Source of the DNA: a virus
Direction: 5' to 3' (one strand)
DNA: 56,067 bases
IMG/VR virus record: IMGVR_UViG_3300024262_000038
Location: 1 to 56,067 of that record
Shown here: positions 8,461-50,569 of the stretch, in pieces
Position numbering within the stretch: the first letter of the stretch is position 1
How the letters are laid out: every line of letters starts with the position of its first letter
Program-made: the position numbers and the translations under genes
Notes under the pieces: model-generated
Told to the model about the DNA's origin: nothing
The model's input: only the letters and a program-made list of their open reading frames with translations
The model's database searches: none

Positions 8461-8495
8461 AAAAAAAGCTCAGCATGTTGTATCATGCGAGCTTT
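8461..8495 (-). terminator. Rho-independent terminator of the ligase/resolvase unit
   Basis: On the minus strand AAAGCTCGCATG and CATGC-T-GAGCTTT form a twelve-pair stem with one bulge and a six-base loop, followed directly by a T run (8461-8467). The stop codon of the upstream resolvase gene (8483-8485) lies inside the hairpin, so the gene ends within its own terminator. Confidence 0.85.
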
Positions 8496-9088
8496 ATTTG
8501 AGTATACAGCCATCGTTTATAAATTAAATAGGCGGCGATTTCATCACGTTGTTTCTTGGAAGCATCGTGATGGCGATTAGCTTGGATGGTTGTAAATGAT
8601 TCGTTAACAAAATAATATCTTTTTCCGGTATATCGCATATAAAGTACTATTATCCTATTAAAACAAAACATAAAACTATCACGTCTGCCATTAAACTTTC
8701 CAATGACGACGTTTTTATATTCATCAATAACCTTTAGTATATCCTGGGTTTTAATCGTCTTGCTTGTGCCATTGCTAGCAAAATACAAACCGGTTACTGA
8801 TGTTCCGAGATCTATGGACACTGTTGAATCATGTTGCTCTATTCCTCTTCCGACTGGTTTGTGTACCCTTATAATTTTCGACGGTGTAATAAGGTATACC
8901 AGCTTATTTAATCTAGTAAGAATATTCACATACAGATGCACATAGTTGTTGTAAGACTGATTTGATACAAACCTGGAGTCTAGCTCTAGACAGACTTTGT
9001 TTGTCATTTTTAATTCATCGAAGAATTGTTCATATGACAAATTTTTTCCATCCTTAATTATATAACGTCCAGATAGTAAGCAAATCAT
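8483..9088 (-). CDS. YqgF/RuvX-like RNase H-fold Holliday junction resolvase
   Basis: A 201-residue protein. The C-terminal half has TVSIDLGTSVTGLYFAS (Asp93), YFVNESFTTIQANRHH (Glu163) and KKQRDEIAAYLIYKRWL (Asp182), matching in order the D-G-x-G, D-E-x-x-T-T and D-x-x-A-A-x-x-I-L motifs of YqgF/RuvX proteins. The first 85 residues are an extension of unknown role. Such an enzyme could resolve recombination intermediates before packaging, the job of endonuclease VII in T4. The start is set at ATG 9088 after GTGGAGGAAGC; an ATG at 9103 would place GGAGG inside the gene. It is the last gene of its unit. Confidence 0.65.
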   Translation of the reverse strand: MICLLSGRYIIKDGKNLSYEQFFDELKMTNKVCLELDSRFVSNQSYNNYVHLYVNILTRLNKLVYLITPSKIIRVHKPVGRGIEQHDSTVSIDLGTSVTGLYFASNGTSKTIKTQDILKVIDEYKNVVIGKFNGRRDSFMFCFNRIIVLYMRYTGKRYYFVNESFTTIQANRHHDASKKQRDEIAAYLIYKRWLYTQIKLA

Positions 9089-9109
9089 GCTTCCTCCACG
9101 CATTCCGAA

Positions 9110-9544
9110 TTAGGTTTGTTCAACCTCTTCCGATTCTTGGTCGGTTTCTTCCGATTCTTGAACACTCTCTTCCTCAATTTTGATTTCTTGAGGTGTCACT
9201 GATTCGATCTGCTCTTTTGTTATTTCCAAGCTCATTCTGTCTATGTTCAGAATGATTCCTTCATAATCTGCAAAGCCATCTGCTTCCATTTTATCCATCA
9301 CTGGATCAAATAGCTTGCCGATTTTGGATGCCAGAAAATCGGATGGGACACCAACAGTCATGCCATCTTTAGATTTGAAGTAACAATAATCAGGTGAACA
9401 ATCAATTTTCTTACAGAAGAGAATCTTGACCTGATCACATCCCTCCACTATGTCTTTTAGCTGAACAGACCCGACGAAATTGTTTTGCATAAATACCGCA
9501 ACAATCTTAGGTTCAACAAACAAGACCTGAACCTCAATCTTCAC
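9110..9544 (-). CDS. Unknown protein with acidic Glu/Ser-rich tail
   Basis: A 144-residue protein with a GTG start (9544) seven bases after AGGAGG. The first 110 residues look like a compact alpha/beta domain with several cysteines (FCKKIDCSPDYCYF). The last 30 or so residues are almost wholly Glu, Gln and Ser. No family recognised. It sits between the peptide-ligase genes and the resolvase and shares their terminator. Confidence 0.65.
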   Translation of the reverse strand: MKIEVQVLFVEPKIVAVFMQNNFVGSVQLKDIVEGCDQVKILFCKKIDCSPDYCYFKSKDGMTVGVPSDFLASKIGKLFDPVMDKMEADGFADYEGIILNIDRMSLEITKEQIESVTPQEIKIEEESVQESEETDQESEEVEQT

Positions 9545-9646
9545 TAATGCCTCCTAAAAATTCTTATACTCATACTATGCACTTATCTTCCCTCGATTCT
9601 CCCTGTGACCCCAGAAATTTAAACCTCCTTTCTTTCTATATATTTA

Positions 9647-10369
9647 TTAGATGGTTGCTGATATTGTTGGAGATCCATATCGCAAACCACAATATGCATC
9701 AGTTGACTCAGTTGACGTGTATGTATAATATTGTGTTGATGCTGTGATTGATGGTGTTGAAACATATGTTGTTGCCCATGTTCCATAATTCGACTGATCC
9801 GGTTGATGGAGGCAATGGTCATTAGCATCATTCAATTTAGAATATTTTTCTGAATATTCAGTGTATGAAATATTATTTTTAACAACATTCACCGCCAGTG
9901 ATATTATTTTTTGGAATATTTCATTATCATAATTAAGAAACAATGATAGGCATTTTTCACAACTATAATTAATTGCATTATATCTTAAATTGCTGAAAAC
10001 ACCTTCGTCTTTTGTAAAGAATATTTTTCCACGTGTATTCCCATAAAATAATCTTCTCAACGTGTTGCAATCGTGGAATTCATAAAACTTCTTCGTCAGA
10101 AATCTTACAATGTTACCAACATATTGCAATGATTTTTCCGAATGAATCTCGCAGCTAATTTGAGCAACATTGATAGAAAATATCATCACTGTTTTGAGAT
10201 TTTTCATATCATTAAGAGTAATAGTTATTTTTGGTGTATCGGATGTAACCATCATTACAAAGAAACTTCTCTTTCCAAACATCATAAAATTTCTATGTCC
10301 AACTGTATTAAACATGCTCCATTTCAACACCCTCTTCCGAAGCAGATCGTCCTGTATCTGTATTATCAT
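9647..10369 (-). CDS. Unknown protein with Ser/Thr/Tyr-rich C-terminus, in ligase cassette
   Basis: A 240-residue protein. The start at 10369 has AAAGGA seven bases upstream and overlaps the ATP-grasp gene by 62 bases; a second start at 10315 would overlap by only eight bases. The body is alpha/beta with scattered cysteines and no motif I recognise. The last 45 residues switch to a Ser/Thr/Tyr-rich stretch (STPSITASTQYYTYTSTEST then AYCGLRYGSP). Because it follows a ligase that joins carboxyls to amines, it could be a partner, a substrate or a third enzyme of the cassette. That is inference from position only. Confidence 0.65.
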   Translation of the reverse strand: MIIQIQDDLLRKRVLKWSMFNTVGHRNFMMFGKRSFFVMMVTSDTPKITITLNDMKNLKTVMIFSINVAQISCEIHSEKSLQYVGNIVRFLTKKFYEFHDCNTLRRLFYGNTRGKIFFTKDEGVFSNLRYNAINYSCEKCLSLFLNYDNEIFQKIISLAVNVVKNNISYTEYSEKYSKLNDANDHCLHQPDQSNYGTWATTYVSTPSITASTQYYTYTSTESTDAYCGLRYGSPTISATI

Positions 10370-11093
10370 TCAACTTTCCTTTGATGTATTTTCTAAATGC
10401 CTTGTATACAAAATTTGCTGATGTTGCATTTGATAAACACGGTGACGAATTTCCTTCCACACAATGTGCGTTCCCTTCAAGATCATAAATTATATCAAAT
10501 GATGCTACAACTATATCCAGTTCATTGATATATTCTGTTATCTTAGAAACGACGGTCTCATCATTATATGATGACATTTCATATTTCCATCCATTGGCTC
10601 CTGTTCTGACAAGCAGACTTCCTGGGTTGTCCCACTTCTGCGTCCAGATCTTTTCTTGCCAAAGGGAATTTCCATATTTATCTACGAATAATCTATATTC
10701 CTTTTTACTTTTTATAAATTTATTTATAAATTTGTATTCGAGTCCAGATAATAACTGTCGCTGAAATCCAAATAATATCAAATGACCTGTTCCATTCATA
10801 TGATATTTCTGGTGGACGATATAAATTTCATCATCCTGCATCTCACAGATTTTCACTCGTTCTATCTCATATGGTAGCCCTTTCCTATTTGTGGAAAGTC
10901 TTCGTATGCCTTTTTTACAATTAACGTCGAAGAGCCTCCCGGCTCCATCGTCATATGAATTGCCCCATCTAATTAATATATCGCATGGCTCCGATTCTGG
11001 AGCACACTCACAATTGAATAACCCAGCTATTGCCTGAGCTGATTCCATAGTATACTTTTCATTATAAACAACGAACATACTCTGATCAAACAT
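10308..11093 (-). CDS. ATP-grasp carboxylate-amine ligase
   Basis: A 261-residue protein ending in a typical ATP-grasp C-terminal lobe: KEYRLFVDKYGN at 131-142, VVASFDIIYDLEGN at 195-208 and CVEGNSSPCLSN at 211-222. Asp200, Glu213 and Asn215 occupy the Mg-ATP binding positions. Members make amide or peptide bonds through acyl-phosphates. I start it at ATG 11093, eleven bases after GGAG; a GTG at 11105 overlaps the ribosome-binding site. It follows a perfect hairpin and the 26-residue peptide gene, and lies in the same unit as a glutamine-synthetase-like ligase (11689-12498). The substrate is unknown. Confidence 0.8.
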   Translation of the reverse strand: MFDQSMFVVYNEKYTMESAQAIAGLFNCECAPESEPCDILIRWGNSYDDGAGRLFDVNCKKGIRRLSTNRKGLPYEIERVKICEMQDDEIYIVHQKYHMNGTGHLILFGFQRQLLSGLEYKFINKFIKSKKEYRLFVDKYGNSLWQEKIWTQKWDNPGSLLVRTGANGWKYEMSSYNDETVVSKITEYINELDIVVASFDIIYDLEGNAHCVEGNSSPCLSNATSANFVYKAFRKYIKGKLNDNTDTGRSASEEGVEMEHV

Positions 11094-11128
11094 ATAATTT
11101 TTCACTCCTTTGGCAACAAAATTTTAAT

Positions 11129-11157
11129 CTTGGATGTGAGGGCCAGTCACATCCAAG
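11129..11157 (-). terminator. Perfect 11-bp hairpin between peptide gene and ATP-grasp gene (possible attenuator)
   Basis: CTTGGATGTGA and TCACATCCAAG pair perfectly around a seven-base loop. On the minus strand the stem is followed by ATTAAAATTTTG, a poor T run. It lies 12 bases past the stop of the 26-residue peptide and 35 bases before the ATP-grasp start. A leaky terminator or RNA-stability element that makes more peptide mRNA than ligase mRNA is the simplest reading. Confidence 0.6.
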
Positions 11158-11169
11158 TTGACGTTATAA

Positions 11170-11250
11170 TTATTCTAATAATACTTCACACTCACTACAT
11201 GGCCCTAACGGGCCTACAAAACTAATTGCGCCAGTTATGAATCCTGACAT
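11170..11250 (-). CDS. 26-residue peptide ending in Glu; candidate ligase substrate
   Basis: A very short frame with one of the strongest ribosome-binding sites in the window (AAAGGAGG, then GTGGTGATTTAA before ATG 11250). The product runs MSGFITGAISFVG followed by PLGPCSECEVLLE. It has a hydrophobic Gly-containing first half, a GPLGPC turn, two cysteines two residues apart and a C-terminal Glu. It is flanked by a carboxylate-amine ligase of the glutamine-synthetase fold upstream and an ATP-grasp ligase downstream, and is closed by a hairpin. It is too small for homology by eye. It could be a modified peptide or protein tag, or a leader peptide. That it is translated is inferred from the ribosome-binding site. 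Confidence 0.5.
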   Translation of the reverse strand: MSGFITGAISFVGPLGPCSECEVLLE

Positions 11251-11688
11251 TTAAATCACCACCTCCTTTGTGTGATCTTGGTTTTATTTCGGCCTTTACA
11301 ACACTTATACTTCACATCAATCTATAACAAGATTACAAAATAATTATAAATCTATATGTTATATGCTACCCGCCAAACAAATATTTACATTATTTCATAA
11401 AAATGGAACAATTGATACTTCATATAGAATTTCTGGGTAGCTACACGCACCTCAGAAAAATGTAAAATTTTTCAACCCCTATCGTAATATCGTCTCACGA
11501 ATGTGTTATATCAAACTTTTTTATCAGAATTGAATATAACTCATGAAACAGGTATGCATCTGTAGAGATGAGTTGGATGTATGCAATCATCCACCACAAT
11601 TCCAGTGAAAATAGATTTATTAAAAAAATACACCAATAATGATGTGGCCGAAACAAATCTATTAAATCGTGGATTTAAGAAATTGAAA
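11251..11688 (-). other. Intergenic region upstream of the 26-residue peptide
   Basis: This is 438 bases without a convincing gene. An A/T-only inverted repeat (arms AAATTGAAAT/ATTTCAATTT) straddles the end of the amidoligase gene at about 11679-11704. A distant inverted repeat GCTACCC/GGGTAGC lies at about 11366-11438 (sequences near 11367 and 11431). On the minus strand TTGTTT, 18 bases, TATAGA is a weak sigma-70-like match ahead of the peptide gene. A 31-codon frame near 11582 lacks a good ribosome-binding site. Confidence 0.4.
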
Positions 11689-12498
11689 TTAAATTTCAAT
11701 TTTATTATCTGCGATATATTTCTGAATTATCGCATTTGCCTTGACGCAGTATGTCTTTGGCATTTTAGTCATGAAATTTTCCCATGTCTCCATATTGACC
11801 TCGGATGGCAACATCTTTCCTCGCACTCTGTGACTATTCCACATGTTGTAGTATGGAAGGAACATCCTCCACTCTTTGGGAGACAGAACTGATTTTATAT
11901 ATTTCAAATGAGTCTTATAATTGACAAGTGTGCTGCCAAATAATTCAACATTGAAATATGTTGAGTACACTATAGATAAAATGCAGAATGCCCATCTTGG
12001 ATCAGATAACCAGGAAGATGGTGTGCGCCATTCTACCGATTTTTTATGATCCTCACGGAACTCATTGCTTTTTCCATAACCCGATTGTTCAACCCTTGTC
12101 TTTCGACCGGGCTCACATAACAAGTATTTATGCTTTTCCCATTCATTCAGAACTTGCCGTATCTCATCTTTCTGTGGGCATTTGTCGAAATGAATATGTC
12201 CTCCTGTTGGAGGAGATCCGACTCCGCCCGCAATCATAATAAACTTATCAATTGAGGGATTCAATTTCTTAAATGCCTTCTCGACCATCACCAACGATAT
12301 TCCCATCTGAGCGATCACAAAAAATGGCTTCCCAGGATCCGGACGGAGTTCAACAACTCTATTTGAATGATCATATCCAATTCTCCCTCCACTTGGAAAT
12401 GCCGGATATTTAAATGACGTAAATTCCGATCCTGATTTTACCTTTGCTTTATAGCCGAATTCTGGATCACATCCTACGAACTTACCTTTATTAGACAC
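11689..12498 (-). CDS. Phage-type COOH-NH2 ligase (amidoligase, glutamine-synthetase-like fold)
   Basis: A 269-residue protein with motifs typical of phage-associated amidoligases: GCDPEFG at 9-15, VVELRPDPG at 48-56, GGHIHF at 99-104 and EWRTPSSWL at 156-164. The acidic and histidine positions would bind two metals and ATP, as in glutamine synthetase and gamma-glutamylcysteine ligase. Members are predicted to join a carboxylate to an amine on a peptide or protein. The start is GTG 12498, seven bases after AGGAGG. The gene is less A/T-rich by eye than its neighbours, which may mean transfer. It heads the unit that holds the 26-residue peptide and the ATP-grasp ligase. Confidence 0.8.
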   Translation of the reverse strand: MSNKGKFVGCDPEFGYKAKVKSGSEFTSFKYPAFPSGGRIGYDHSNRVVELRPDPGKPFFVIAQMGISLVMVEKAFKKLNPSIDKFIMIAGGVGSPPTGGHIHFDKCPQKDEIRQVLNEWEKHKYLLCEPGRKTRVEQSGYGKSNEFREDHKKSVEWRTPSSWLSDPRWAFCILSIVYSTYFNVELFGSTLVNYKTHLKYIKSVLSPKEWRMFLPYYNMWNSHRVRGKMLPSEVNMETWENFMTKMPKTYCVKANAIIQKYIADNKIEI

Positions 12499-12529
12499 GA
12501 AAAAACCTCCTGGGTTGATAAGGGTTTTA

Positions 12530-12550
12530 CGGGTGGTATACTACCACCCC
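12530..12550 (-). promoter_or_regulatory. Hairpin in the amidoligase leader
   Basis: GGGTGGTA and TACCACCC form an eight-pair stem with a three-base loop in the 5' leader, 30 to 50 bases before the GTG start. No T run follows on the coding strand, so an operator or leader RNA structure is more likely than a terminator. Confidence 0.45.
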
Positions 12551-12639
12551 AACCCTCGAGCTAGACTCCACAGCTTGCGCTGCTTTGTGAATAAAAATAT
12601 TTGCCTATTCAAATAATTAATATATGTACTTTTTTGAGA

Positions 12640-12672
12640 TTAACAAAAATTAGCAGTTCTCGTAAATACTAA
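12640..12672 (-). promoter_or_regulatory. Weak GAGAAC promoter motif for the ligase cassette
   Basis: Minus-strand AGTATTTACGAGAACTGCTA then ATTTTTG resembles the element found before other units, but the base after GAGAAC is T rather than A. It is about 160 bases upstream of the amidoligase start and points toward it. Confidence 0.4.
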
Positions 12673-28497: not shown

Positions 28498-29490
28498 ATG
28501 GGGAGTCCTTACAGCGTTTATTTTGATTGGTTATATGACGGAGCAGATAGTGAATTGCCAGAAGTAGTTATAGATAATAAAAGTAAATTTTCAATTCACT
28601 ATCTGCTTAATCTTTTCATATTAAATCGTAAAGTGTGTCTATATGCCAATAAGTATATTAATAATTTTTATTGTATAGGTCTTTCATTTGAAGATTTTTC
28701 TAAAACAATAAAATTTATTATTCAACAATTCAGCATTCAAAAATCTGATCTTTTTCATTCAAAATTTATCTACGATAGAAAAGACAAAGAAATTTATGAA
28801 ATAATGGATAGATATCCTTATTTGAAATATGGAGATATTGTGTTATTATATGATAGATTTAAGAAACATCACAACGATGATTATAGTAAAAAAATAATTA
28901 AGAAAAAATCGGCCAAACAAAGTAAAATATCTTTCGACAACATAGTGGCTGAATTCAAAGACATAAAGAAAAGTTGTGATGGATGTATTCTAATGGACGA
29001 GCCGATGTGTTTGTTTGATACAAATAGTAAAACAAATATTCTCAATGTTGATATTATGTTTATTGGAGAGGCTCCAGGAATAAAAGACATCGAGGATGGA
29101 AAACCATTTGTCGGCAAGCCTGGGAAACTTTTTAGAAAATATATTAAAGATTATATTGTTAAAAATAAATTAAAATACTTTATAACAAATTCAGTTTTGT
29201 GTCGTCCAATAAATAATATAATGGATCAGAAGTATGTTTCGAACTGTTCTAAAAATTTAGATAAGGTGATCGAACTAGTGAAACCAAAGATGTTGGTTGC
29301 TGTTGGTGCAACAACGATGAATAGGTTGGGATGTGAAGAAAAAATTAGTAAATTTCATGGAAACTCATTTGAATATAATGGGTTAAAGTGTTTTGCTTTG
29401 ATACATCCAAATGCACTACTGAGAAATACGTTTAGTGAATCTGTGTATGAAGAAGATTTTCTCAAATTGGTCAGTCTTCTAAGGGGGTAA
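28498..29490 (+). CDS. Iron-sulfur uracil-DNA glycosylase (family 4-like) with N-terminal extension
   Basis: A 330-residue protein. The C-terminal half is a family 4/5-type glycosylase: IMFIGEAPGIKDIEDGKPFV (186-205), NSVLCRPI (231-238) and LIHPNALLRN (301-310). Cys160, Cys163, Cys235 and Cys250 occupy the four iron-sulfur ligand positions. The first 150 residues are an extra domain with no recognised motif. The enzyme removes uracil from DNA. It starts the unit with QueE, DpdA, helicase and polymerase, so repair is co-expressed with modification and replication. Confidence 0.88.
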   Translation: MGSPYSVYFDWLYDGADSELPEVVIDNKSKFSIHYLLNLFILNRKVCLYANKYINNFYCIGLSFEDFSKTIKFIIQQFSIQKSDLFHSKFIYDRKDKEIYEIMDRYPYLKYGDIVLLYDRFKKHHNDDYSKKIIKKKSAKQSKISFDNIVAEFKDIKKSCDGCILMDEPMCLFDTNSKTNILNVDIMFIGEAPGIKDIEDGKPFVGKPGKLFRKYIKDYIVKNKLKYFITNSVLCRPINNIMDQKYVSNCSKNLDKVIELVKPKMLVAVGATTMNRLGCEEKISKFHGNSFEYNGLKCFALIHPNALLRNTFSESVYEEDFLKLVSLLRG

Positions 29491-29492
29491 TA

Positions 29493-29834
29493 GTGGATTC
29501 ATACAAAGTGAAATTACTTGGACGCAACTTGACGATAGTAAAACAGGATGTGCATCCAGGAGCAGATCCCGAAAATCAGGGCTGCGCTTTTTGTACAAAT
29601 GATTTAGTGTTTGTTAATTCCGCTGATAAAGAATATTCTTTTGATGTGTTGATTCATGAATTGATGCATCATTTTTTTTGGATAGGCGGGCGCAGAGATG
29701 ATGATGAACAATCCAATTTGGAGCATATATGCAATATTGTTCCAGCATTTATAAATGCCATGATAAATGAAAATGGATTTGATATTTTTGGAAAATTGTC
29801 TGTGTGGGTTAGTGAAGAAGAGGAGGGTCAATGA
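29493..29834 (+). CDS. Small HExxH metallopeptidase-like protein
   Basis: A 113-residue protein with VLIHELMHHFFW (HELMH at 55-59), the zinc-binding helix of metallopeptidases, preceded by a Cys-x-x-Cys pair and followed by an EHICNIVPAF helix that could give the third ligand. It resembles minimal IrrE/SprT-type peptidase folds found in phages. The start is GTG 29493 after AAGGGGG. It overlaps queE by four bases. Substrate unknown. Confidence 0.65.
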   Translation: MDSYKVKLLGRNLTIVKQDVHPGADPENQGCAFCTNDLVFVNSADKEYSFDVLIHELMHHFFWIGGRRDDDEQSNLEHICNIVPAFINAMINENGFDIFGKLSVWVSEEEEGQ

Positions 29835-30550
29835 GTAAATCTCTTCCACTTGTCGAAACTGTAGTATCTTGGCAGGGTGAAGGAATATTTCAAGGAGAGT
29901 TATCGTTTTTCCTAAGATTTAAAAGATGTAATAGAAAAGTGCCATGTCCATTTTGTGACACAGTGGAAAGAATAAGTGATTCGTTTGAACATAACATATG
30001 TTTTGATGATCTGTTTAACGTTGCACATACCATAAATGATAAATACGTTATAACTGGCGGCGAGCCAACACTATATAATAATCATCTTGTGGATTTTTTT
30101 AAATATTTGGATTCTAAAATAAAAAATGGAATAGTTTCTAAAGTAACAATAGAAACTAACGGATACAAATTGAAAAATCTAATAGCAAAATTGGAAAATG
30201 GTGTTAGTTTTGTTTTTTTGGAAAATGTATTTTATGATTATTCCCCAAAAGAATTTGATAATCCGGAGGAATATAAAAAGATATTATCCATTGTAGAATT
30301 TTTATATGAAAAATATAATGAAAATTCTTATATTAAGATAGTTGCTTATGATCACAAAGAAAAATACAAATATACAAAACAAATATTAGAAGATTTGACC
30401 AATAGGTTTCCCAAATTATTAATATATGTTATGCCAGAGGGTTCAACATATACAGAAATAATATTGCACGCATCTGAAATTTTATCTATTGTTAAACATT
30501 ATAAATGTAATTTTTCTAGTAGGATGCATTTAATTCATAATTTTTACTAA
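29831..30550 (+). CDS. queE: QueE-like 7-carboxy-7-deazaguanine synthase (radical SAM)
   Basis: A 239-residue protein. It opens with LVETVVSWQGEGIFQGELSF, the QueE substrate-loop signature (E-x-F-x-S-x-Q-G-E-G), then RCNRKVPCPFCDT carrying the cluster cysteines at 33, 39 and 42, and ITGGEPTLY at 74-82. QueE turns carboxy-tetrahydropterin into 7-carboxy-7-deazaguanine, the precursor of preQ0 and of phage 7-deazaguanine DNA bases. The cysteine spacing is C-x5-C-x2-C, not the usual C-x3-C-x2-C. It is directly upstream of the DpdA-like gene. QueD, QueC and FolE were not found in the window. Confidence 0.82.
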   Translation: MSKSLPLVETVVSWQGEGIFQGELSFFLRFKRCNRKVPCPFCDTVERISDSFEHNICFDDLFNVAHTINDKYVITGGEPTLYNNHLVDFFKYLDSKIKNGIVSKVTIETNGYKLKNLIAKLENGVSFVFLENVFYDYSPKEFDNPEEYKKILSIVEFLYEKYNENSYIKIVAYDHKEKYKYTKQILEDLTNRFPKLLIYVMPEGSTYTEIILHASEILSIVKHYKCNFSSRMHLIHNFY

Positions 30551-30562
30551 TGGGAGATTAAT

Positions 30563-31939
30563 GTGAAGTTGATCGATAAAAATGAAGGCTATGTTGCTGC
30601 TGCGGGACTTTCCATATTTGGAAGGTATGATAAAAAAATGGAAAACAAGGATAATATTTATGATAAAATTAAAGACTTAATTTTGAGTTATTGTAATAAA
30701 TCTCTATATTGTTATGCTAGAGGTATAAGCGAACAGCACGGATTCAGAGAATTGAAGCACAACAAATCAATAACCAGAGATATGTTGAGAAGAAAAAATT
30801 ATAATGATTTAACAAAAGAAATGGTTCTGTATATAGATAGCGGGGGTTTTCAATGCGCACTTGGTTATATAAAAAAATCCCAATTGGATTTATATATAGA
30901 TACATACTGTGAATTTTTAATAGAGAATTGTGAACATTATGATTGGGCATTTTCTTTAGATATGCCTCCATTTGATAATTTGTTTCTCGATGCTGATGAT
31001 ATGTTCAAGATAAATATAGATTCATACATTAGATTGTTTGGGAATCTCCCACAACATGTCAGGGAGAAACTTATATTTGTCAAACATTTTAGGACTCCAT
31101 CGCAATATGACGTGTGGAATCGTATAATAAATAATAAGGAAGTGATGAGTGGTTTCGAAAGTAACTATTGGTCAGTTGGTGGTATAGTTGCCAATTTAAC
31201 TGGTGAGCACTTCATTCCTTATATATCTTATTGTATACCATTTTCTGAAATATTTAAATGGTGTTTGGAGAATGATAGAAAAGAAGTTACAATACACATT
31301 CTTGGTGGATGTAGTTACAGGGATATAATGTATTATATATTTGCTAAAAGATATGCTGAATTGAAATTGGGTCTCGTTGTTCATTTTACTTATGATTCGA
31401 CAAGTCTTGCCAGACAGGTTTTGCTTGGTAGATATGTATATATAATAAACGAAAATGGCAGAATGGGAAAATGTAGTTTTAAATCAGATCAGTTAAAAGA
31501 TAAAGTGCAGGGCATGACAGTTAATGATTGGATATATAAATGCATGAGAGATGTTTGTGAGTATGCAGATATCGATATTGAGATGCCAAAAAATATATAT
31601 GGAGAAAAGAATCTCAATCCAGTTGCAGAAATGCTAGTTGTAACATACCAAGTTCATCTATTCAAAAAAATGAGTGATATCTATGAAAAAATTGCGTATT
31701 CCATGACATTAGAAGAAATGGAAAATCAAGATTATTTCGATAGCAAAATAATAGATGTTTTATTTGGAATAAATGATCATAGATATAGTAGAAAATTTAG
31801 AAGTAAAACAAATAATTTTCACAGATCCGTGATGTATTTAGCTACTGGAGATAAAGAGAACAATAGAAAAGTGATAAATTATTACATGGCGAAAGATGAG
31901 TTAAAATTCATAAATGACGTCAGTGTTGATACATTTTAG
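30563..31939 (+). CDS. dpdA: DpdA-like DNA-guanine transglycosylase
   Basis: A 458-residue protein with the tRNA-guanine transglycosylase barrel pattern: VLYIDSGGFQ (Asp92), WAFSLDMPP (Asp133), SVGGIVANLTG (204-214), TIHILGGCSYRDI (243-254) and FTYDSTS (Asp278). DpdA enzymes exchange guanine in DNA for a 7-deazaguanine base. The two Asp residues at 92 and 278 match the general-acid/nucleophile positions of the family. The neighbouring QueE supports DNA rather than tRNA modification. The C-terminal 150 residues are specific to this protein. The start is GTG 30563. Confidence 0.82.
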   Translation: MKLIDKNEGYVAAAGLSIFGRYDKKMENKDNIYDKIKDLILSYCNKSLYCYARGISEQHGFRELKHNKSITRDMLRRKNYNDLTKEMVLYIDSGGFQCALGYIKKSQLDLYIDTYCEFLIENCEHYDWAFSLDMPPFDNLFLDADDMFKINIDSYIRLFGNLPQHVREKLIFVKHFRTPSQYDVWNRIINNKEVMSGFESNYWSVGGIVANLTGEHFIPYISYCIPFSEIFKWCLENDRKEVTIHILGGCSYRDIMYYIFAKRYAELKLGLVVHFTYDSTSLARQVLLGRYVYIINENGRMGKCSFKSDQLKDKVQGMTVNDWIYKCMRDVCEYADIDIEMPKNIYGEKNLNPVAEMLVVTYQVHLFKKMSDIYEKIAYSMTLEEMENQDYFDSKIIDVLFGINDHRYSRKFRSKTNNFHRSVMYLATGDKENNRKVINYYMAKDELKFINDVSVDTF

Positions 31940-31951
31940 GAGGGCACAAAT

Positions 31952-33394
31952 ATGATTTCTGAAATTTTTTTGGATAAAGTTTTAGATTTATACTTTTGTA
32001 AAACAGTGGATTCATATTATGATGAGACAATTGTTAGAAATGATATTATGACGGTATTGGCATATGCATCTAATAACGAACTCCCAATAAGAATTCTTCC
32101 AAAATTTGAATTAGTTAATTATATAATTCATGATGTGGATTGGGATAAAAATTCATCTGATATCGTACTAGAAAATATTTCCTCATCTGATAAATTTTCT
32201 CAGTTTATAGATTTATTGAAGTATAAACAGACAATTTTATTAGATAGGGTCAGATGTCAATCAATTCTTCAGATGATTAATATGAAGAAAGAAGGCATTA
32301 TTATAGAAGAAGATAAGAACATACTGGTAGATTTCTTAGATAAATATGAAAGTGGAGATTTTTCCGGAAGCGAAGAACTCGTTAAAACATATGAAGATAT
32401 GATAAGTAACATATATATTAGAACTCTATTAAAGAAACGATATGATGATACTATTAATATGAATGAGTTTGTTTTTGAAAATGAATTATCACTAGATAAT
32501 TGTTTGAAAATAATAGAAAAAACCAATGATGAAACTACGAAAATAAAAAGTGGACTTCCTATGTTCGATAGGACGACACTGAGAGGTGGTTTTGATAATG
32601 GCAGAATATATATCTTCGGAGGAACTCCTGGTGTTGGAAAATCTATAATGCTTTTAAATCTTCTTTGTGGTGCTACATTCCATCCTGATAATGAAGAAGG
32701 GTTATATTTTTATTTTACGCTTGAAAACTTTATAGAAGAAAGCTTGGACAGAATGATGAAGATAATACCATACCACGATCCAACATTTGGAAAATCTGGT
32801 AATGGTGATCCTAGAGAAGTAATAAAAGGATTGGAAAAATCAAATAAAAAAATTCTCATGAAATATCTTCATCCTTATACTAGCACTGTCAATGATGCTA
32901 TGATCTATATCGACGAAGCAATGGCGAAAACAGGTTTGAAACCAAAAATGATAATCTTTGATTATCTAGATTTATTCTCATCTGTCAACAAAACAGATTT
33001 GTATAGATTGGAACTTGGATATGTGACAATGGAACAGAAAATGGTTGGGATAAAATATTCAGCCCCAGTTATAACCGCAACACAATTAAATGCAGAAGGA
33101 TATAACAAGAATACTCCTGGATTAGGAAGTCTGACCGAGTCTAAGAAAAAAGTGGAGCATGGTGATTTCGTTGGTTTACTGAAAACAGACGATAGTGTTT
33201 CACCCATCAAGGATTTATTTGTACATGTTAGAAAAAATAGAAATGGTCCGCTTGGTGATATTGCATTTAAAATAGACTATGTTAAGATGATCATATCCGA
33301 ACAAAACAAAAACAACTTTTCAAATAGCTCAATTCCTAATATTGGAATTGATACAAGTGATATTATTATTAATCAGGGGGGATTTGGTGATTAA
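31952..33394 (+). CDS. DnaB-type replicative helicase (T4 gp41-like)
   Basis: A 480-residue protein with a helical N-terminal domain (1-180), a linker, and a RecA-like motor: GLPMFDRTTLRGGFDNGRIY leading to Walker A GGTPGVGKS (223-231), a LYFYFTLENF segment (DnaB H1a), Walker B MIIFDYLD (333-340), ITATQLN (DnaB H3) and FVHVRKNRNGPLGDIAFKID (H4 arginine region). It would unwind the fork as a hexamer with the primase at 5291-6259. The length is close to DnaB (471) and gp41 (475). Ribosome-binding site AGGAGGG. Confidence 0.93.
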   Translation: MISEIFLDKVLDLYFCKTVDSYYDETIVRNDIMTVLAYASNNELPIRILPKFELVNYIIHDVDWDKNSSDIVLENISSSDKFSQFIDLLKYKQTILLDRVRCQSILQMINMKKEGIIIEEDKNILVDFLDKYESGDFSGSEELVKTYEDMISNIYIRTLLKKRYDDTINMNEFVFENELSLDNCLKIIEKTNDETTKIKSGLPMFDRTTLRGGFDNGRIYIFGGTPGVGKSIMLLNLLCGATFHPDNEEGLYFYFTLENFIEESLDRMMKIIPYHDPTFGKSGNGDPREVIKGLEKSNKKILMKYLHPYTSTVNDAMIYIDEAMAKTGLKPKMIIFDYLDLFSSVNKTDLYRLELGYVTMEQKMVGIKYSAPVITATQLNAEGYNKNTPGLGSLTESKKKVEHGDFVGLLKTDDSVSPIKDLFVHVRKNRNGPLGDIAFKIDYVKMIISEQNKNNFSNSSIPNIGIDTSDIIINQGGFGD

Positions 33395-33686
33395 ATCTAC
33401 ATTATATGTTGCCATACAAGGATTTATATCTTGTGTGTGTTTTGCATTGATGTCCTCGGCTGTTACATGGATGGCTGGTGAAGAAATTATAAGTATGACA
33501 TTTGGGTTAATATATGCTAAGCAGCTGACTTATATTTATTTTTTGAAATTGAATTTTATTTTATTGTGGACTATTTATTGGATGGAGAAGATTTGGAATC
33601 TTCCGATATTCGAGGCACTCACAATTGTAATAGAAAAATTATTCTCAACTAAAGCTAAAGGAGGAAATGATGAACATACGGTATAA
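33387..33686 (+). CDS. Small two-span membrane protein (holin candidate)
   Basis: A 99-residue protein starting at GTG 33387 after GGGGGGATTT, overlapping the helicase end by eight bases. Hydrophobic segments lie at about 5-28 (YVAIQGFISCVCFALMSSAV) and 44-66 (LTYIYFLKLNFILLWTIYWM), followed by a short charged tail. The size and topology suit a holin, and the next gene is a probable peptidoglycan hydrolase, but no holin family is recognisable. Confidence 0.6.
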   Translation: MIKSTLYVAIQGFISCVCFALMSSAVTWMAGEEIISMTFGLIYAKQLTYIYFLKLNFILLWTIYWMEKIWNLPIFEALTIVIEKLFSTKAKGGNDEHTV

Positions 33687-34335
33687 CCTACAAAAATACT
33701 TGTTTACTCTAATAGGTGACACGGCATTTCATTTAAGCATTACAAAAGAGTATGGATTTAGATTTATGTTTGGAATAAATCCACCATCATATAGCTTCTC
33801 TGGTGATGAATTGTATGATTGTATAGAAAAACTTTTTGATGGTGAGTTTGAACCAGGGGATATATTCTTGAGAAGATATGATTCTTATTTGGACACAAAA
33901 TTTATACCTGGAGAAATGAATCATGCGGGTGTATATGTCGGAAAAGAAAATGGAAAACATCATGTTATCCATGCTTTGTCCCAGGGTGTCATAAAGGAGA
34001 ATGCTGTTAATTTTTTAAGGACAGATCATTTCGTAGTATTTAGACCCAATATTCCCAAAGAGCTGAGAAGTGAAGCAGCCATATCAGCATATGATTACTT
34101 AGGGAGACCTTATGATTTTGATTTCAAATTTACAGACGATTCTAGATTGGCATGTACCGAACTCATCGGCGCATGTTATAAAAAATTCAGCGATGTATAT
34201 AAATTTAATATGAAACAACGGTTTGGAAGAATTACTTTAATTGCTGATGATATTTTCTTATCAGATGGTGAAATAGTGTTTCATACCAAGAGCATAGAAG
34301 ATTTCAATATTTGGAAATTGAAGAACAAAAATTAA
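33667..34335 (+). CDS. YiiX/permuted NlpC-P60-like hydrolase
   Basis: A 222-residue protein with the permuted papain-like pattern of the YiiX family: EPGDIFLRR (62-70), EMNHAGVYVG (His86), HVIHALSQGV, and DDSRLACTELIGACY (Cys163), with YDYLGRPYDFDF just before the Cys. A Cys163-His86 catalytic pair is inferred. Relatives cleave amide bonds in cell-wall peptides or act on lipids. It overlaps the small membrane protein gene by 20 bases, which suggests a lysis or entry pair. No signal peptide seen. Confidence 0.7.
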   Translation: MMNIRYNLQKYLFTLIGDTAFHLSITKEYGFRFMFGINPPSYSFSGDELYDCIEKLFDGEFEPGDIFLRRYDSYLDTKFIPGEMNHAGVYVGKENGKHHVIHALSQGVIKENAVNFLRTDHFVVFRPNIPKELRSEAAISAYDYLGRPYDFDFKFTDDSRLACTELIGACYKKFSDVYKFNMKQRFGRITLIADDIFLSDGEIVFHTKSIEDFNIWKLKNKN

Positions 34336-34354
34336 AAATAAGAGGAAGAATTTA

Positions 34355-36976
34355 ATGTCTTTTTTGATGAATGAGATAAAACCAATCATGGAGAAATTCA
34401 ACAATCCTGGTTTGTTAGATATTCAATATTTGAAAAATAATTTGTATTATATTTTTAGATCTGATGGTGATAAAAAATTAATTTACAAATATAAAGGTGA
34501 TACAAATTATTATTATTACAAAAATGATAGAAGTGTTGAGGCGACAGAAAGTATTAGTAATTGTGAAATGGTGTATGGTAATTATAATAAAGTGCGAAGA
34601 TACACCGAAGATAGTTCATTTGAACAGGATTTCAATATTGCAACAAGACATGCGCTGGATTTCTATTTGAGCAATCCAAACAATGATGCTAAATATAGAA
34701 TTTTATTTTTAGATATAGAATTAGATTTGAAAAATTGCAATGGAATGCCAAGTAATATGAATGCGAGTGCTCCAATATGCATGATATCTTATGGCACGGA
34801 TGTTGACAACATAAAAACACTATCTTTGGAAAGTCCAAAGATAAATAAAGATAAATGGAAAAACACTACCATGTTCTTTGAATCGGAAAAGGAAATGCTA
34901 AATTATCTAATAATGGATATCCGAACGATGAATTTGGATATTTTGACGGCATGGTATGCATATTTCGACTATGGTTATATTATGGGCAGAATGCAGTATT
35001 TGAAAATGGACTATAGTAAATTGTCTCCAGTTGGGCATGTTAGTATGAATCCAAAATATAAAGAAATAATATATGGTGGGTTTGTTATTGTCGATTTATT
35101 GGAAATTTATAAGAATTTTTCTCTCGGAGAATTATCATCATATAAACTCGATATGGTTGCTCAGCATGAATTGAAAGAAGGGAAGCACAAATTCGAAGGG
35201 GATATTAGAACACTATTTGAGAGAGATCCAGATAAAATGATTGAATACAATAAACAGGATGTTGCTCTCATATGTAGGATTAATAAAAAGAAGAAACATA
35301 TCGAGCTTCAGAACAAACTACGAACTTTTTGTGGGATGACGTGGAAAAAATCACTCTCAACCATAGGTCTCATTGATGGATTGCTGGTGAAATTTTCCAG
35401 ACAAAATAATCATGTTATACGTTCTAATAGAAAATCCAAAGCAATAGAACCCATCCGGGGCGCGTATGTTAAAACACCGAAAGGTGGAATATATGAATGG
35501 GTTATTGATTTGGATTATAGTGCACTATATCCTTCAATAATTAGATCATATAACATGGGCATGGAAACTATACTCGCCGATATAGATGAGAAAGTGGCTT
35601 TTAATTATTTATATAAAGGTGAACTTCCAGAAACCGAAGTAAAAATTAGGCTATTCCCATATTCAAACAAAGAAAAATATGATCTTATCACGCCAGACAG
35701 ATTGAAAGAAATGATAGATGAAAACTATTTGACTCTGAATGGGGCATTCTTTAAGAAGCACGATCGTGGAATATCTCTATATAATACAATCTTAACAAGT
35801 TTGGATAAACTTAGAAAGGTTTACAAAAATTTATATAAAGAATATTTGGAAAAGGGCGAGGAAGAAGAATCTGATAAAAATTATATTGCACAGTGGGCTG
35901 TAAAGATTCTTTCGAATGCTATGTATGGAGCATTGCAGAATGAAAATTACAGATATTTTAATCCAGTTCTTGGATCTGCCGTTACATCCACTGGTCAAGA
36001 ATTAATTAAGATGACTGGTATGGCTGTTGATAGTGCTTTAGAAAAAGATGAAAAAATAACAAGCTTAGATTTTAATTATATCATCAAAAAATTTAGAAGT
36101 GAGTTTTATCTAGATGATATAACAACCAAAGATGTTATCTACACTGACACAGATTCAATATTTATTGAAATGGACGCCTTGCTAAAGAAAAATAAAAGCA
36201 AGGATTATGTTAAAGACATCCTAGAATATTGGGTTCCATATATATCAAATGTCGTGAATGAAATATTTATTAAAGATAATTATATTGGTTTTCATAAATT
36301 GGATAAGAATAATTGTTTTTTGGATGTTAAACAGGAATGGATTGCCAGAAGAATGTATATGGTCGTCAAGAAGAGATATGCATATTGGATGATTAATAAT
36401 GAAGGTGTCGAGGCTGATAAAATAAAAATAACTGGGCTGGACAATAAACGGTCAGATGTTTCTCAATTCACGAGGGATAAGCTGTCGACATTATTTGAGA
36501 TGATATTAAAGTCTGAAGAGAAGGTAGATATATCCCAATTATTAGATTTTATGCATATCGCGGAGAGTGAAATGATGAGTCTTATTAAAAATAGAAACAT
36601 ATGTATTGGGAGGCCAGTCAATTTTAACAAAGAATTAAGTGAATATAAAAATATGCCGCAACACATAAAAGGGATGCTGACGTGGAATGAAATAATGAAC
36701 GAAGATTTTGCAGCGGGGACAAAAGGATATTTGTATACAATAAATGGAATAGATACATCATTTTTAGATAAGGTGCAACTTAAGAAGTATTCTAAATTTT
36801 TAAAGACAAACACATTCAAATCAGTTGATTGTATAGTAATTCCACAAGAGTATGATTTTGTTCCAGATCAGTTTATTTTAAATTCAATAGACATATTGGA
36901 TAAGGGCTGGAAAAAAATAGTAACAAGAATTTTAAATCCAATTTTCCAATTGGAAATGGAATTAGAAACATTTTAA
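34355..36976 (+). CDS. Family B DNA polymerase (T4 gp43-like)
   Basis: An 873-residue protein with all core motifs. The 3'-5' exonuclease has LFLDIELDL (Asp120, Glu122), a LTAWYAYFDYGYI segment and EYNKQDVALI. The polymerase has motif A DLDYSALYPSII near 385, motif B KILSNAMYG near 517 and motif C YTDTDSIF near 596. Length is close to T4 gp43 (898). It is intact and unsplit and should be the replicative polymerase working with the clamp at 4086. Ribosome-binding site AGAGGAAG. It ends the 28498-36976 unit. Confidence 0.97.
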   Translation: MSFLMNEIKPIMEKFNNPGLLDIQYLKNNLYYIFRSDGDKKLIYKYKGDTNYYYYKNDRSVEATESISNCEMVYGNYNKVRRYTEDSSFEQDFNIATRHALDFYLSNPNNDAKYRILFLDIELDLKNCNGMPSNMNASAPICMISYGTDVDNIKTLSLESPKINKDKWKNTTMFFESEKEMLNYLIMDIRTMNLDILTAWYAYFDYGYIMGRMQYLKMDYSKLSPVGHVSMNPKYKEIIYGGFVIVDLLEIYKNFSLGELSSYKLDMVAQHELKEGKHKFEGDIRTLFERDPDKMIEYNKQDVALICRINKKKKHIELQNKLRTFCGMTWKKSLSTIGLIDGLLVKFSRQNNHVIRSNRKSKAIEPIRGAYVKTPKGGIYEWVIDLDYSALYPSIIRSYNMGMETILADIDEKVAFNYLYKGELPETEVKIRLFPYSNKEKYDLITPDRLKEMIDENYLTLNGAFFKKHDRGISLYNTILTSLDKLRKVYKNLYKEYLEKGEEEESDKNYIAQWAVKILSNAMYGALQNENYRYFNPVLGSAVTSTGQELIKMTGMAVDSALEKDEKITSLDFNYIIKKFRSEFYLDDITTKDVIYTDTDSIFIEMDALLKKNKSKDYVKDILEYWVPYISNVVNEIFIKDNYIGFHKLDKNNCFLDVKQEWIARRMYMVVKKRYAYWMINNEGVEADKIKITGLDNKRSDVSQFTRDKLSTLFEMILKSEEKVDISQLLDFMHIAESEMMSLIKNRNICIGRPVNFNKELSEYKNMPQHIKGMLTWNEIMNEDFAAGTKGYLYTINGIDTSFLDKVQLKKYSKFLKTNTFKSVDCIVIPQEYDFVPDQFILNSIDILDKGWKKIVTRILNPIFQLEMELETF

Positions 36977-37005
36977 AATTGTAAAACGAGAACAAAATAA
37001 AAACG
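36976..37005 (+). promoter_or_regulatory. GAGAAC promoter motif for the 37064 unit
   Basis: AAAATTGTAAAACGAGAACA then AAATAAAAAC starts at the last base of the polymerase gene, about 75 bases before ATG 37064. Confidence 0.65.
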
Positions 37006-37063
37006 ATGATATAGTAACATCGAAAAATTTTTAACATTCTAATGTTTGGGAGGATGAATTACC

Positions 37064-38347
37064 ATGAAGAAAACTAGATCCGATCATTTAATCGAAGCCG
37101 CGGAAACACTAAGAAGAATATTTTATGAAGAATATGAAGAGGAACCGGTTCTCAAGACAACCAAAGAAATTGAAGATGAAGAAGGAGCAAACCGTGCCGA
37201 ATTTCTAAATTCTCTAAAAGATCTCAAGGACGACGAAGTCCCTGCTGAGATGCCCGAAGGTGAAATGAGTGGCGAAGAAATGCCTGCAGAAGGTGAAGAA
37301 ACAACTTTTGAAGCACCCGCAGAAGGTGAAGAAATGGCTGCCGAAGGTGAAGAAATGGCCGCTGAAGGCGAAGCCGGGGAAGGTGCAGGTGAAGAAGTAG
37401 AAGCTGTAGGCGAAGAAGAAGAAGAAGAAGAAGTAGAAGAAAGTTGGAGAGAAAGTTGGAGAGAAAGTTTAACAGAATCCGAAGAAGGACTCGAAGACTT
37501 GGAACAACTAGATGCGGATGATAGTCTTGAAAATGAATCAGAGGTTGAAGTAAAAACTGGACCCGTTGATGGCGGAAAGCTCGAAGAGCAAAGAGCATCA
37601 GGTGGCCCACAAGCTTCCAGAAGATCAGAATTGGAAGAACAGCAAGATGGCGTTGAGGATGTGGTTCAAATTGAAATTGAAGACGAGATGGATGAGATGG
37701 AAGTTGCATCAGGTGAACAATTCGATGCAGGTCCGGCAGAAGAAGTTTACGAAGTAGAAATGGGTGGTGAGGAAATGGCTGACGAAGAAATGCCTGCAGA
37801 AGTACCCATGGAAATGGATGATGAAGATGAAGAGGGAGAAGAAGTAGAAGAAAGAGAGCAGGAAAGTGCCAATCTACTTAGAGAATTTCAGAAATTAGAA
37901 TCTGAAATGAGACAAATAATGAAAAGTTCTATAATCCAGGAAGATCTCGAAATGGCAGACACATACCTGGATGATCTTATCGAGCAGGTCAAAACTGAAG
38001 GGATGCCTGATACAGTTTCGGCTGAATTCGATGTAATGGATACTGGAAAAGCAAAACCTAAGACTGTGGATCTTGGAGACGAATATTCAGAACTTGATAT
38101 TTTCAAGGAAGATTTAGATTTCTTCGAGGAAGAAGCCGAAGGTAGTGATGTGCTCGATGAAAAGTACCCAGAAACAGATACAGATGAAGTCATTGAGAAT
38201 GAAGACGAAGGTCTCGCCGCTCAAGAAAAACCGGAAGGTGGAACAGGACTCAAAGAAAATAAGACTTATCATCAACTTCAAGATGAAGAAGATTATGAAG
38301 AATTTGAGGAATGGCTTCGTTTCGGAACTGATAAAAAGAAGAAATAA
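37064..38347 (+). CDS. Hyperacidic low-complexity protein
   Basis: A 427-residue protein dominated by Glu, Asp, Ala and Met. Residues 60-125 carry imperfect repeats of EMPAEGEE/EMAAEGEE, followed by a pure Glu run and ESWRESWRESLTES. A helical region near 265-315 (LLREFQKLESEMRQIMKSSI) separates a second acidic tail, and the last residues are Lys-rich. There is no catalytic motif. A scaffold or prohead-core role is plausible given the downstream head genes; DNA mimicry is another option. It has its own promoter motif and GGGAGG site, suggesting high expression. Confidence 0.7.
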   Translation: MKKTRSDHLIEAAETLRRIFYEEYEEEPVLKTTKEIEDEEGANRAEFLNSLKDLKDDEVPAEMPEGEMSGEEMPAEGEETTFEAPAEGEEMAAEGEEMAAEGEAGEGAGEEVEAVGEEEEEEEVEESWRESWRESLTESEEGLEDLEQLDADDSLENESEVEVKTGPVDGGKLEEQRASGGPQASRRSELEEQQDGVEDVVQIEIEDEMDEMEVASGEQFDAGPAEEVYEVEMGGEEMADEEMPAEVPMEMDDEDEEGEEVEEREQESANLLREFQKLESEMRQIMKSSIIQEDLEMADTYLDDLIEQVKTEGMPDTVSAEFDVMDTGKAKPKTVDLGDEYSELDIFKEDLDFFEEEAEGSDVLDEKYPETDTDEVIENEDEGLAAQEKPEGGTGLKENKTYHQLQDEEDYEEFEEWLRFGTDKKKK

Positions 38348-38363
38348 TTGAGGAGGAATTATA

Positions 38364-38711
38364 ATGAGATATTTAGTTTATGTTAAACTTCCAGGCAAAA
38401 TGATTGAGTGGAAGAGAGGAATGTTCAGAACTCCTCTGAGACTTATAATGCATGGCGAAAAAGAGTTGGAAGAATACAAAATTAGACTGAAAGCTGCTGG
38501 CATTCTCCCTCATCAATATGAAGTTTCAGAATTAGACAAAAAGGATGAAAAGAAAGAGGTCGCAGTACAAAAATCAGAAAAACCTCTCAAGGACATTAAA
38601 CGTGAAGTTAAAGAGCAGGAGAATGTTCCCTTTAAAAAGTCTGATGAGAAAAAAGAATTAAAAGAATCAAAAGATAAAGGTGTTAGTGATAAGGATAAGA
38701 AGGAAAAATAA
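38364..38711 (+). CDS. Small Lys/Glu-rich protein paired with the hyperacidic protein
   Basis: A 115-residue protein with a folded-looking N-terminus (MRYLVYVKLPGKMIEWKRGM) and a 60-residue lysine/glutamate-rich disordered tail. It starts after GAGGAGGAATTATA, 16 bases past the hyperacidic gene, and is closed by a terminator. Opposite charge and co-transcription suggest that the two products may bind each other. Function unknown. Confidence 0.7.
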   Translation: MRYLVYVKLPGKMIEWKRGMFRTPLRLIMHGEKELEEYKIRLKAAGILPHQYEVSELDKKDEKKEVAVQKSEKPLKDIKREVKEQENVPFKKSDEKKELKESKDKGVSDKDKKEK

Positions 38712-38732
38712 GTAACTTCTTATTTAATATAA

Positions 38733-38771
38733 TGGGGAGGGGGATATATATAACCCTTCCCCTATTTTTTT
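38733..38771 (+). terminator. Rho-independent terminator after the acidic/Lys-rich pair
   Basis: GGGGAGGG and CCCTTCCCC pair around an A/T-rich loop (GGATATATATAA), followed by TATTTTTTT. It separates the 37064-38711 unit from the portal genes. Confidence 0.85.
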
Positions 38772-38805
38772 CGTAAAAAATGTGTATGTGTCAGGAGGAT
38801 TAATA

Positions 38806-39108
38806 ATGAAATTTACGTTTTTTGTATCCAACATACCTAAACCAATTATAATTACAACAGATGATCAGGACAGAAATGAAGCTCAGGATATTATTCAAAA
38901 AGCTATGTCCAATTCTTTGGTTTTGTGTATAGAAAATCATGCGGAGTTTGCAATAATTCGCGGATCAACAATAAATTTCGTCCTAGGTCATTCAATAATT
39001 GATGTCGACGAATCGTGCAATGCATCTAATTGTAAGATTCTTGAGGGTGTCAGAATATCTATACCAGTAGAGATGAATACCGAAGATTCGGAAGTTGAGG
39101 TTAATTGA
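38806..39108 (+). CDS. Unknown 100-residue protein
   Basis: Starts at ATG 38806, six bases after AGGAGG; an in-frame GTG at 38782 precedes the ribosome-binding site. It is beta-rich with a helix (NEAQDIIQKAMSNSLVLCIE) and an acidic tail. No motif recognised. No GAGAAC motif lies between it and the terminator at 38771, so read-through or another promoter must serve the portal unit. Confidence 0.65.
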   Translation: MKFTFFVSNIPKPIIITTDDQDRNEAQDIIQKAMSNSLVLCIENHAEFAIIRGSTINFVLGHSIIDVDESCNASNCKILEGVRISIPVEMNTEDSEVEVN

Positions 39109-39110
39109 TT

Positions 39111-39539
39111 ATGACATGGTTTATAATTTGTTTTTTATCCGTGATTTTAATTATATATACAATTTTTAATAGTCTAAGATGTGTTATGGATTTAAGGATA
39201 AAATATACTGAAAACTATGAAAAAATAAACGATATAATAATATATAAAGCAACACAAAGTTATGATTTATTTAGGATAAGAGATTTGGCTGTTTATATAA
39301 ATAATGACACCAGAATGACTCAAGAAGAATTTATATCATATGCGAAATCGTATAGGGATTTTTTTAAGTTATTTTGTGGTGATGTAATATATTCGCTTGC
39401 TTGTAAAATATATGGCGGAGAAAAACAGCTAAAAATTTATTTGACAATCATTTTTCACAATTTTATTATAGATGATAAATTGGTAAAAGCATCCGAATCA
39501 TTATATGAAAAATTGCTCAAAGAGGGGAATAATAAATGA
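39111..39539 (+). CDS. Small protein with N-terminal membrane anchor
   Basis: A 142-residue protein starting at ATG 39111 with an immediate hydrophobic segment (MTWFIICFLSVILIIYTIFN) and a soluble helical rest containing several Tyr and Cys residues. A single-span membrane protein with a cytoplasmic domain is likely. It overlaps the portal gene start by four bases. Function unknown. Confidence 0.6.
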   Translation: MTWFIICFLSVILIIYTIFNSLRCVMDLRIKYTENYEKINDIIIYKATQSYDLFRIRDLAVYINNDTRMTQEEFISYAKSYRDFFKLFCGDVIYSLACKIYGGEKQLKIYLTIIFHNFIIDDKLVKASESLYEKLLKEGNNK

Positions 39540-41461: not shown

Positions 41462-41885
41462 GTTTTTGACCGAGTCTTCCGAATCGAAATGGTTGTCACG
41501 ACAAATTGTTAATGTTATATTCAATTTCGACAGGGCATTCCAAAGATTTAGGAGATTTTTCCCAAATTGCGCTTTCAATGATCTGATAAATGATAGAATA
41601 TCTATAATGCATGAGATCGTGGGAGAGATGCAGGAAAACATGCCCGACATGACGATATTGAAAAGATTGTTGGAAAGCATTTTAAAAATCATATGGACAA
41701 TAGATAAACAAATGGTTAATTATATGAAACAAGAAAGAGAAAAGGAAATAAAAGAAGAGAAAGAATATAAAGAAGAAATTAAAGATAAAAAAGAAGATCA
41801 AGATGATATAAAGAATCAGCAAATTAGTAATAAAGAAGAAGTGATGAAAGATATAAATGAAGATAATATGCGGATGAAGCAATAG
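41433..41885 (+). CDS. Unknown protein with highly charged coiled-coil tail (possible prohead core)
   Basis: A 150-residue protein starting at ATG 41433 after AAGGAGATTTCTAATC and overlapping the portal end by 29 bases. Residues 1-90 are helical; the rest is Lys/Glu-rich (KEIKEEKEYKEEIKDKKEDQ). The composition and its place between portal and protease recall T4 gp67/gp68 core proteins, but no homology is evident. Confidence 0.6.
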   Translation: MVKKKNQHFKFLTESSESKWLSRQIVNVIFNFDRAFQRFRRFFPNCAFNDLINDRISIMHEIVGEMQENMPDMTILKRLLESILKIIWTIDKQMVNYMKQEREKEIKEEKEYKEEIKDKKEDQDDIKNQQISNKEEVMKDINEDNMRMKQ

Positions 41886-41897
41886 GGAGGATACAAT

Positions 41898-42548: not shown

Positions 42549-42566
42549 TTATATTTGGGAGTTATT

Positions 42567-43337: not shown

Positions 43338-43360
43338 TTAAAAAATGCCTAGTAAACAAG

Positions 43361-43382: not shown

Positions 43383-43394
43383 GGAGGGCGGAAT

Positions 43395-44079: not shown

Positions 44080-44084
44080 CCCCT

Positions 44085-50560: not shown

Positions 50561-50569
50561 GGAGATAAG

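Follow-up and report, generated by a model that had tools for sequence, protein, structure and literature searches.

What do two ligases of unrelated folds, both predicted to join carboxylates to amines, accomplish together in a phage, and which molecule would receive the bonds that they make? The question is raised by a run of four open reading frames (ORFs) on the minus strand of IMG/VR record IMGVR_UViG_3300024262_000038, a fragment of a virus genome whose whole stretch of 56,067 nt is called here the window. Read from 12498 down to 9647, the run encodes a glutamine synthetase (GS)-type ligase, a 26-residue peptide, an ATP-grasp ligase and a partner protein, and all four ORFs were found where an earlier note on this DNA had placed them. 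We propose, with a probability of about 0.6, that the locus is a reduced, divergent cassette whose two ligases work one after the other on a shared acceptor while the phage infects its host. The four genes are the following.

11689..12498, minus strand: GS-fold COOH-NH2 ligase of 269 amino acids, assigned by its PF14395 match, active-site residues and predicted fold.
11170..11250, minus strand: ORF of 26 codons (MSGFITGAISFVGPLGPCSECEVLLE) with the Shine-Dalgarno sequence AAAGGAGGTG and a codon score of 0.03, like its neighbours.
10308..11093, minus strand: RimK-like ATP-grasp ligase of 261 amino acids, assigned by a profile built without the window, invariant residues and a structure model.
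9647..10315, minus strand: orphan partner protein of 222 amino acids with a Ser/Thr/Tyr-rich tail, starting at ATG 10315.

Sequence comparison and structure prediction together show that both folds are present with their conserved residues, that each enzyme belongs to its family and that the two are linked. The GS-type protein matches PF14395 (COOH-NH2 ligase type 2) with 55.3 bits against a curated cut-off of 25, and its alignment with family members indicates that the active-site residues G9, D11, P12, E13, E50, H101/H103, R148 and E156/R158 are kept, as is the family-wide pattern of GxDPE, a second-strand Glu, GGHxH, an Arg and ExR. A structure model built from 27 sequences (predicted local distance difference test, pLDDT, 82; predicted template modelling score, pTM, 0.83) finds Dop and PafA (best, E 4e-4), as well as YbdK and glutamine synthetase, among the PDB entries, and these matches support the GS fold and a distant resemblance to Pup ligase. 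While the enzymes of pupylation thus share the GS-type fold and provide the top PDB match, PafA and Dop are only ~10% identical to the window protein and the locus holds no Pup-like substrate. A tblastn search of 50,697 phage records with the GS protein gave zero matches even at E 10. The G+C content of the GS gene is 39%, as against 32% for the window.

The ATP-grasp gene, ~0.6 kb away on the same strand, most likely starts at ATG 11093 rather than at GTG 11105, since the latter falls within the gene's own Shine-Dalgarno sequence. A profile of nine phage ATP-grasp proteins, the window excluded, recognizes its product at E 1.4e-9, and the ATP/Mg residues E132, R134, K148, D200, E213 and N215 (ExR, K, D, ExN) are invariant. 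The structure model (pTM 0.71) matches synapsin, LysX/ArgX, RimK, D-Ala-D-Ala ligase (Ddl) and graspetide ligases in the PDB, and the family profile (10 rows, the window being one of them) finds RimK at 1.6e-8, followed by cyanophycin synthase and graspetide ligases. RimK, LysX/ArgX and cyanophycin synthase have the fold and the Mg/ATP residues in common with the window enzyme, although the sequence similarity is at the superfamily level only. Both ligase assignments of the earlier note, with the motifs that it quoted, are thereby borne out by several lines of evidence (Pfam, residues, model and PDB matches for the GS protein; window-free profile, residues and model for the ATP-grasp), and the loss of metal and ATP residues that it had named as contrary evidence is not seen, both enzymes having retained their conserved active-site residues. 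The R2K clade of ATP-grasp proteins, considered from PMC4431377 and PMC7824862, is not supported by Pfam, which gave no R2K-type match (E <= 1).

Judged by sequence, the locus belongs to a phage ligase cassette that is already known, in a form that has diverged and lost genes usual elsewhere, as far as the fragment shows. Indeed, a PF14395 protein is paired with an ATP-grasp in phiEco32, the LUZ24-like PhiCHU, PA11, KpnP_VR7901 and Vibrio 1.293.O, and also in an Alcaligenes phage, two crAss-like phages and an uncultured podovirus; the pair also occurs in Citrovirus. These phages usually encode some of three further proteins: a class-II glutamine amidotransferase (GAT-II), a PF12224 amidoligase and a gamma-glutamyl cyclotransferase. 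The phiEco32 ligase is matched by 305 phage records, and among 16 records searched GAT-II occurs in 12 and the cyclotransferase in seven. The window thus shares with the phiEco32-type cassette (phiEco32 gp77-gp88, LUZ24-like phages, PA11, Citrovirus and crAss-like Asinivirinae) a PF14395 GS ligase and a RimK-like ATP-grasp near replication genes. It differs in that GAT-II, the PF12224 amidoligase and the cyclotransferase were not found, and in that its GS protein belongs to another clade, with 17-24% identity. We found no report in the literature of what amidoligase cassettes make: PMC3890496 lists cassette genes and assigns no function to them, and a modified receptor that shuts out rival phages is a prediction of Iyer et al. 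2009, as cited in PMC11318856.

Closer relatives of the GS protein came from alignment-based scans, which led to uncultivated phages and to 75 loci in spore-forming Bacillota. In the GS tree, the window, the uncultivated phages and the host proteins group together, apart from the classic phage type 2 proteins, with a support of 100/99. The gene order in many of the uncultivated phages is GS-long, GAT-II, ATP-grasp, a small protein, a sigma-like protein and GS-short; as in the window, the gene after the ATP-grasp encodes a small protein whose tail is of low complexity, whereas the window has one GS gene, no GAT-II that could be found and a partner without detectable kinship to that small protein. 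The latter, termed 'KVR', lies 3' of the ATP-grasp gene in seven loci. A Pup-like reading of its acidic C-termini (EEEEG, DEG, TEEL and the like) was rejected, as it is mostly the Shine-Dalgarno sequence of the next gene that encodes them.

In the spore-formers (Cohnella, Paenibacillus, Thermoactinomycetaceae, Syntrophomonas and Heliobacterium), the two folds are joined in one protein, mostly of ~450-620 amino acids, in which a degenerate ATP-grasp part of the phage type at the N-terminus precedes a full PF14395 domain. The window-free phage profile recognizes this N-terminal part in ~20 of the host fusions (best E 1.2e-8). The fusions belong to the same GS clade and the same ATP-grasp family as the window enzymes, but their ATP-grasp parts are truncated and have mostly lost the catalytic Glu, and the fusions stand in a spore-coat setting: 72 of the 75 loci have a CotE or YheC/D-like gene no more than ~6 kb away, and the remaining three are short pieces (3.7-7.8 kb) that come from the end of a contig or from a small contig. 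The host fusion is thus a candidate spore-coat modification enzyme. Fusion in spore-formers and repeated adjacency in phages are good evidence, at the level of sequence, that the two folds work together.

From this we infer what the enzymes do and in which order, what they act on and how they serve the infecting phage. Amide-bond formation by both predicted enzymes is likely. The ATP-grasp would use ATP to convert a carboxylate, probably that of an amino acid or of a peptide or protein end given its kinship with RimK, into an acyl-phosphate that is then joined to an amine. The GS-like enzyme would form another amide bond, probably with a carboxylate of a side chain or of a terminus, in the manner of glutamine synthetase and PafA, and both would act successively on a single acceptor in the infected cell. 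By analogy, a macromolecular acceptor is favoured because of the RimK kinship and because the host version is found among spore-coat genes. It is most likely a protein, of the host or of the phage, or else a polymer of the host surface, and its change could favour the phage by shielding, by keeping other phages out or by helping to take over the host.

Several observations weigh against this interpretation. Taken alone, the ATP-grasp protein matches no Pfam family (E <= 1) and gives no single-sequence family match, and the middle part of its model has low confidence. The branch of the window GS protein is very long (2.9 changes per site), its position within the clade is tentative, and its substrate may, given that branch, differ from that of its relatives. 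Searches of the window and of an overlapping contig found neither GAT-II nor the cyclotransferase, and a search of the 56 kb for the PF12224 amidoligase gave no match, as it did in every control genome. As the window is a fragment, the whole virus may still carry these companions. We know of no biochemical study of any protein of the phage cassette. The overlapping contig, IMG/VR 3300009149_000127, covers 23053-56067, matches at 99.94% where compared (29355-41973 and 41085-48575) and by its coordinates reaches ~2.9 kb beyond the window end; it comes from the same virus and is the only near relative obtained in single-protein searches of IMG/VR with the GS, ATP-grasp, DNA polymerase and capsid sequences.

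The cyclotransferase and GAT-II encoded in related phage cassettes also suggest a different product, namely a small gamma-glutamyl metabolite whose glutamyl handle is later removed by the cyclotransferase, as in butirosin synthesis. This alternative seems unlikely, as neither companion was found in the window and the host version adjoins spore-coat genes, which favours a macromolecular acceptor. In another reading, still more improbable, the pair would be a minimal two-enzyme protein-modification module without pathway companions, of the kind that spore-formers seem to use, fused in one protein, at the spore coat, with the orphan peptide or the Ser/Thr/Tyr-tailed partner as its dedicated acceptor. 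The partner is most likely a protein of 222 amino acids that starts at ATG 10315, just inside the end of the ATP-grasp gene, and not one of 240 residues as first thought. It has no significant Pfam match, no PHROG match and no match in 15 related records, and a kinship with the small protein found 3' of the ATP-grasp gene in relatives was rejected, since the two cannot be aligned. It may be the acceptor or a third enzyme, the two roles that the earlier note had offered for it.

The 26-codon ORF between the ligases was the basis of the earlier note's proposal that a peptide is modified by the cassette or attached to proteins. Its ribosome-binding site, described there as excellent, is confirmed (AAAGGAGGTG); with frames of fewer than 10 codons set aside, no other short ORF that starts in an intergenic gap of the window has a strong Shine-Dalgarno sequence. 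Because of this signal and of a codon usage like that of its neighbours, the ORF is probably translated. Two further features surround it.

11129..11157, minus strand: perfect 11-bp hairpin CTTGGATGTGA-CTGGCCC-TCACATCCAAG, located after the stop codon of the peptide and before the Shine-Dalgarno sequence of the ATP-grasp gene.
11251..11688, minus strand: stretch of 438 nt in which no ORF makes a convincing gene; phage relatives have the class-II glutamine amidotransferase at this place.

A tag or building block attached by the ligases through its C-terminal Glu to phage or host proteins, in the manner of Pup, would agree with this ribosome-binding site, with the position of the gene between two ligase genes, with a peptide ending in Glu (VLLE) and with a GS model nearest to PafA and Dop. 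Yet the 26-mer has no relative beyond chance in the phage collection, and among 16,762 short ORFs of the related loci the best score to it is 37, when shuffled queries reach 36-51. The slot beside the ATP-grasp gene in relatives is occupied by GAT-II or by unrelated small genes, none of them akin to the 26-mer, and no short frame with a conserved C-terminus was found in the homologous loci, a result that the earlier note had itself said would refute its peptide. The terminal Glu is unremarkable as well, given that 6% of the ORFs of at least 120 amino acids in related loci end in Glu. Pup is a disordered protein of 60-odd residues ending in Gly-Gly-Gln/Glu; the 26-mer is hydrophobic, contains Gly, Pro and Cys, and is thus not a small conserved tag of that kind. 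Attachment of the peptide as a tag is therefore not supported and is a quite improbable account of the locus, though it could apply to this lineage alone. Of the proposed cassette, the two carboxylate-amine ligases of unrelated folds stand, whereas the peptide as a conserved substrate is not supported.

The same peptide could be imagined as a ribosomally synthesized and post-translationally modified peptide (RiPP), in which the ATP-grasp would cross-link side chains as in graspetides and the GS enzyme would add a further amide. It does contain Ser, Thr and Glu, and the matches of the family profile and of the model include the graspetide ligases CdnC, AMdnB and PsnB, but RimK and cyanophycin synthase score equally well or better, the peptide lacks a leader/core pattern, the gene run has no exporter or protease, and the short-ORF comparison with shuffled queries revealed no conserved precursor beside the ATP-grasp. 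This reading is accordingly very doubtful. The 181-nt segment with the hairpin folds better than shuffled sequences (z -2.6), and the position of the hairpin agrees with a translated leader no less than with a peptide substrate. Rather than a conserved substrate, the ORF is most likely either a small gene peculiar to this lineage or a leader that is translated ahead of the ATP-grasp and partner genes on the transcript.

The 438-nt stretch in the usual place of GAT-II, together with the very long GS branch, might also point to two ligases that are decaying leftovers of a fuller cassette, retained by chance beside a spurious 26-codon ORF. Such an origin has little to recommend it, as both enzymes are uninterrupted, without internal stops, and retain their invariant active-site residues, and the Shine-Dalgarno sequences are good. 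No decayed GAT-II was recognized in 11251-11688: the ORF tested there, of 53 amino acids, has an anti-coding codon usage (-0.26 bits/codon). An Rfam search of the gap gave no match. Elsewhere, at 9617-9631 on the minus strand, AAAGGAGG...TTTAAAT recurs, the only other copy in the window. No ATG, GTG or TTG start stands at a suitable spacing from it, and translation from ATT yields ISGVTGRIEGR, with a faint likeness to the 26-mer start MSGFITGAI; it is possibly a decayed duplicate.

The reduced cassette proposed here is of wider interest since amidoligase cassettes occur in hundreds of phage genomes, the carrier in this case being a large, little-known phage. Its two-enzyme version is easier to test than cassettes of many genes, and the spore-former fusion near CotE and YheC/D offers an experimental handle in culturable bacteria and hints at macromolecule modification as the common chemistry.

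The run is preceded by a promoter-like element, the GAGAAC motif that the earlier note had seen there, the copy at 12661(-) standing ahead of the GS gene.

12640..12661, minus strand: promoter-like GAGAAC motif 5' of the GS gene, assigned by the intergenic enrichment of the motif.
8431(-), 12661(-), 16290(-), 16385(+), 21738(+), 28466(+), 36988(+), 43369(+), 45704(-), 12920(+): copies of GAGAAC.

The motif lies between a T-rich stretch and an A-rich stretch, in that order. Because the window has 16 copies of it and 10 of these fall in the gaps between genes, which make up 7.7% of the sequence (binomial P 3.9e-8), GAGAAC is likely a phage promoter element, plausibly read by the phage's own multi-subunit RNA polymerase, whose beta and beta-prime genes lie at 47501-54718. 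The shared terminator that had been assumed was not detected by a consensus scan behind the partner gene. Since the next minus-strand copy of GAGAAC past the run is only at 8431, the transcript may extend over 9110-9544 and a RuvC-like gene at 8483-9103. The GS leader (12499-12670, minus strand) contains a strong nested hairpin immediately before the Shine-Dalgarno sequence.

Three further genes of the virus on the plus strand are of note: 28498-29490 encodes a uracil-DNA glycosylase, and 29831-30550 a radical-SAM protein that is QueE-like by eye and could belong to a 7-deazaguanine route. The third, at 33667-34335, encodes a permuted papain-like amidase (Peptidase_C92, E 2e-18), through which the virus may also hydrolyse amides.

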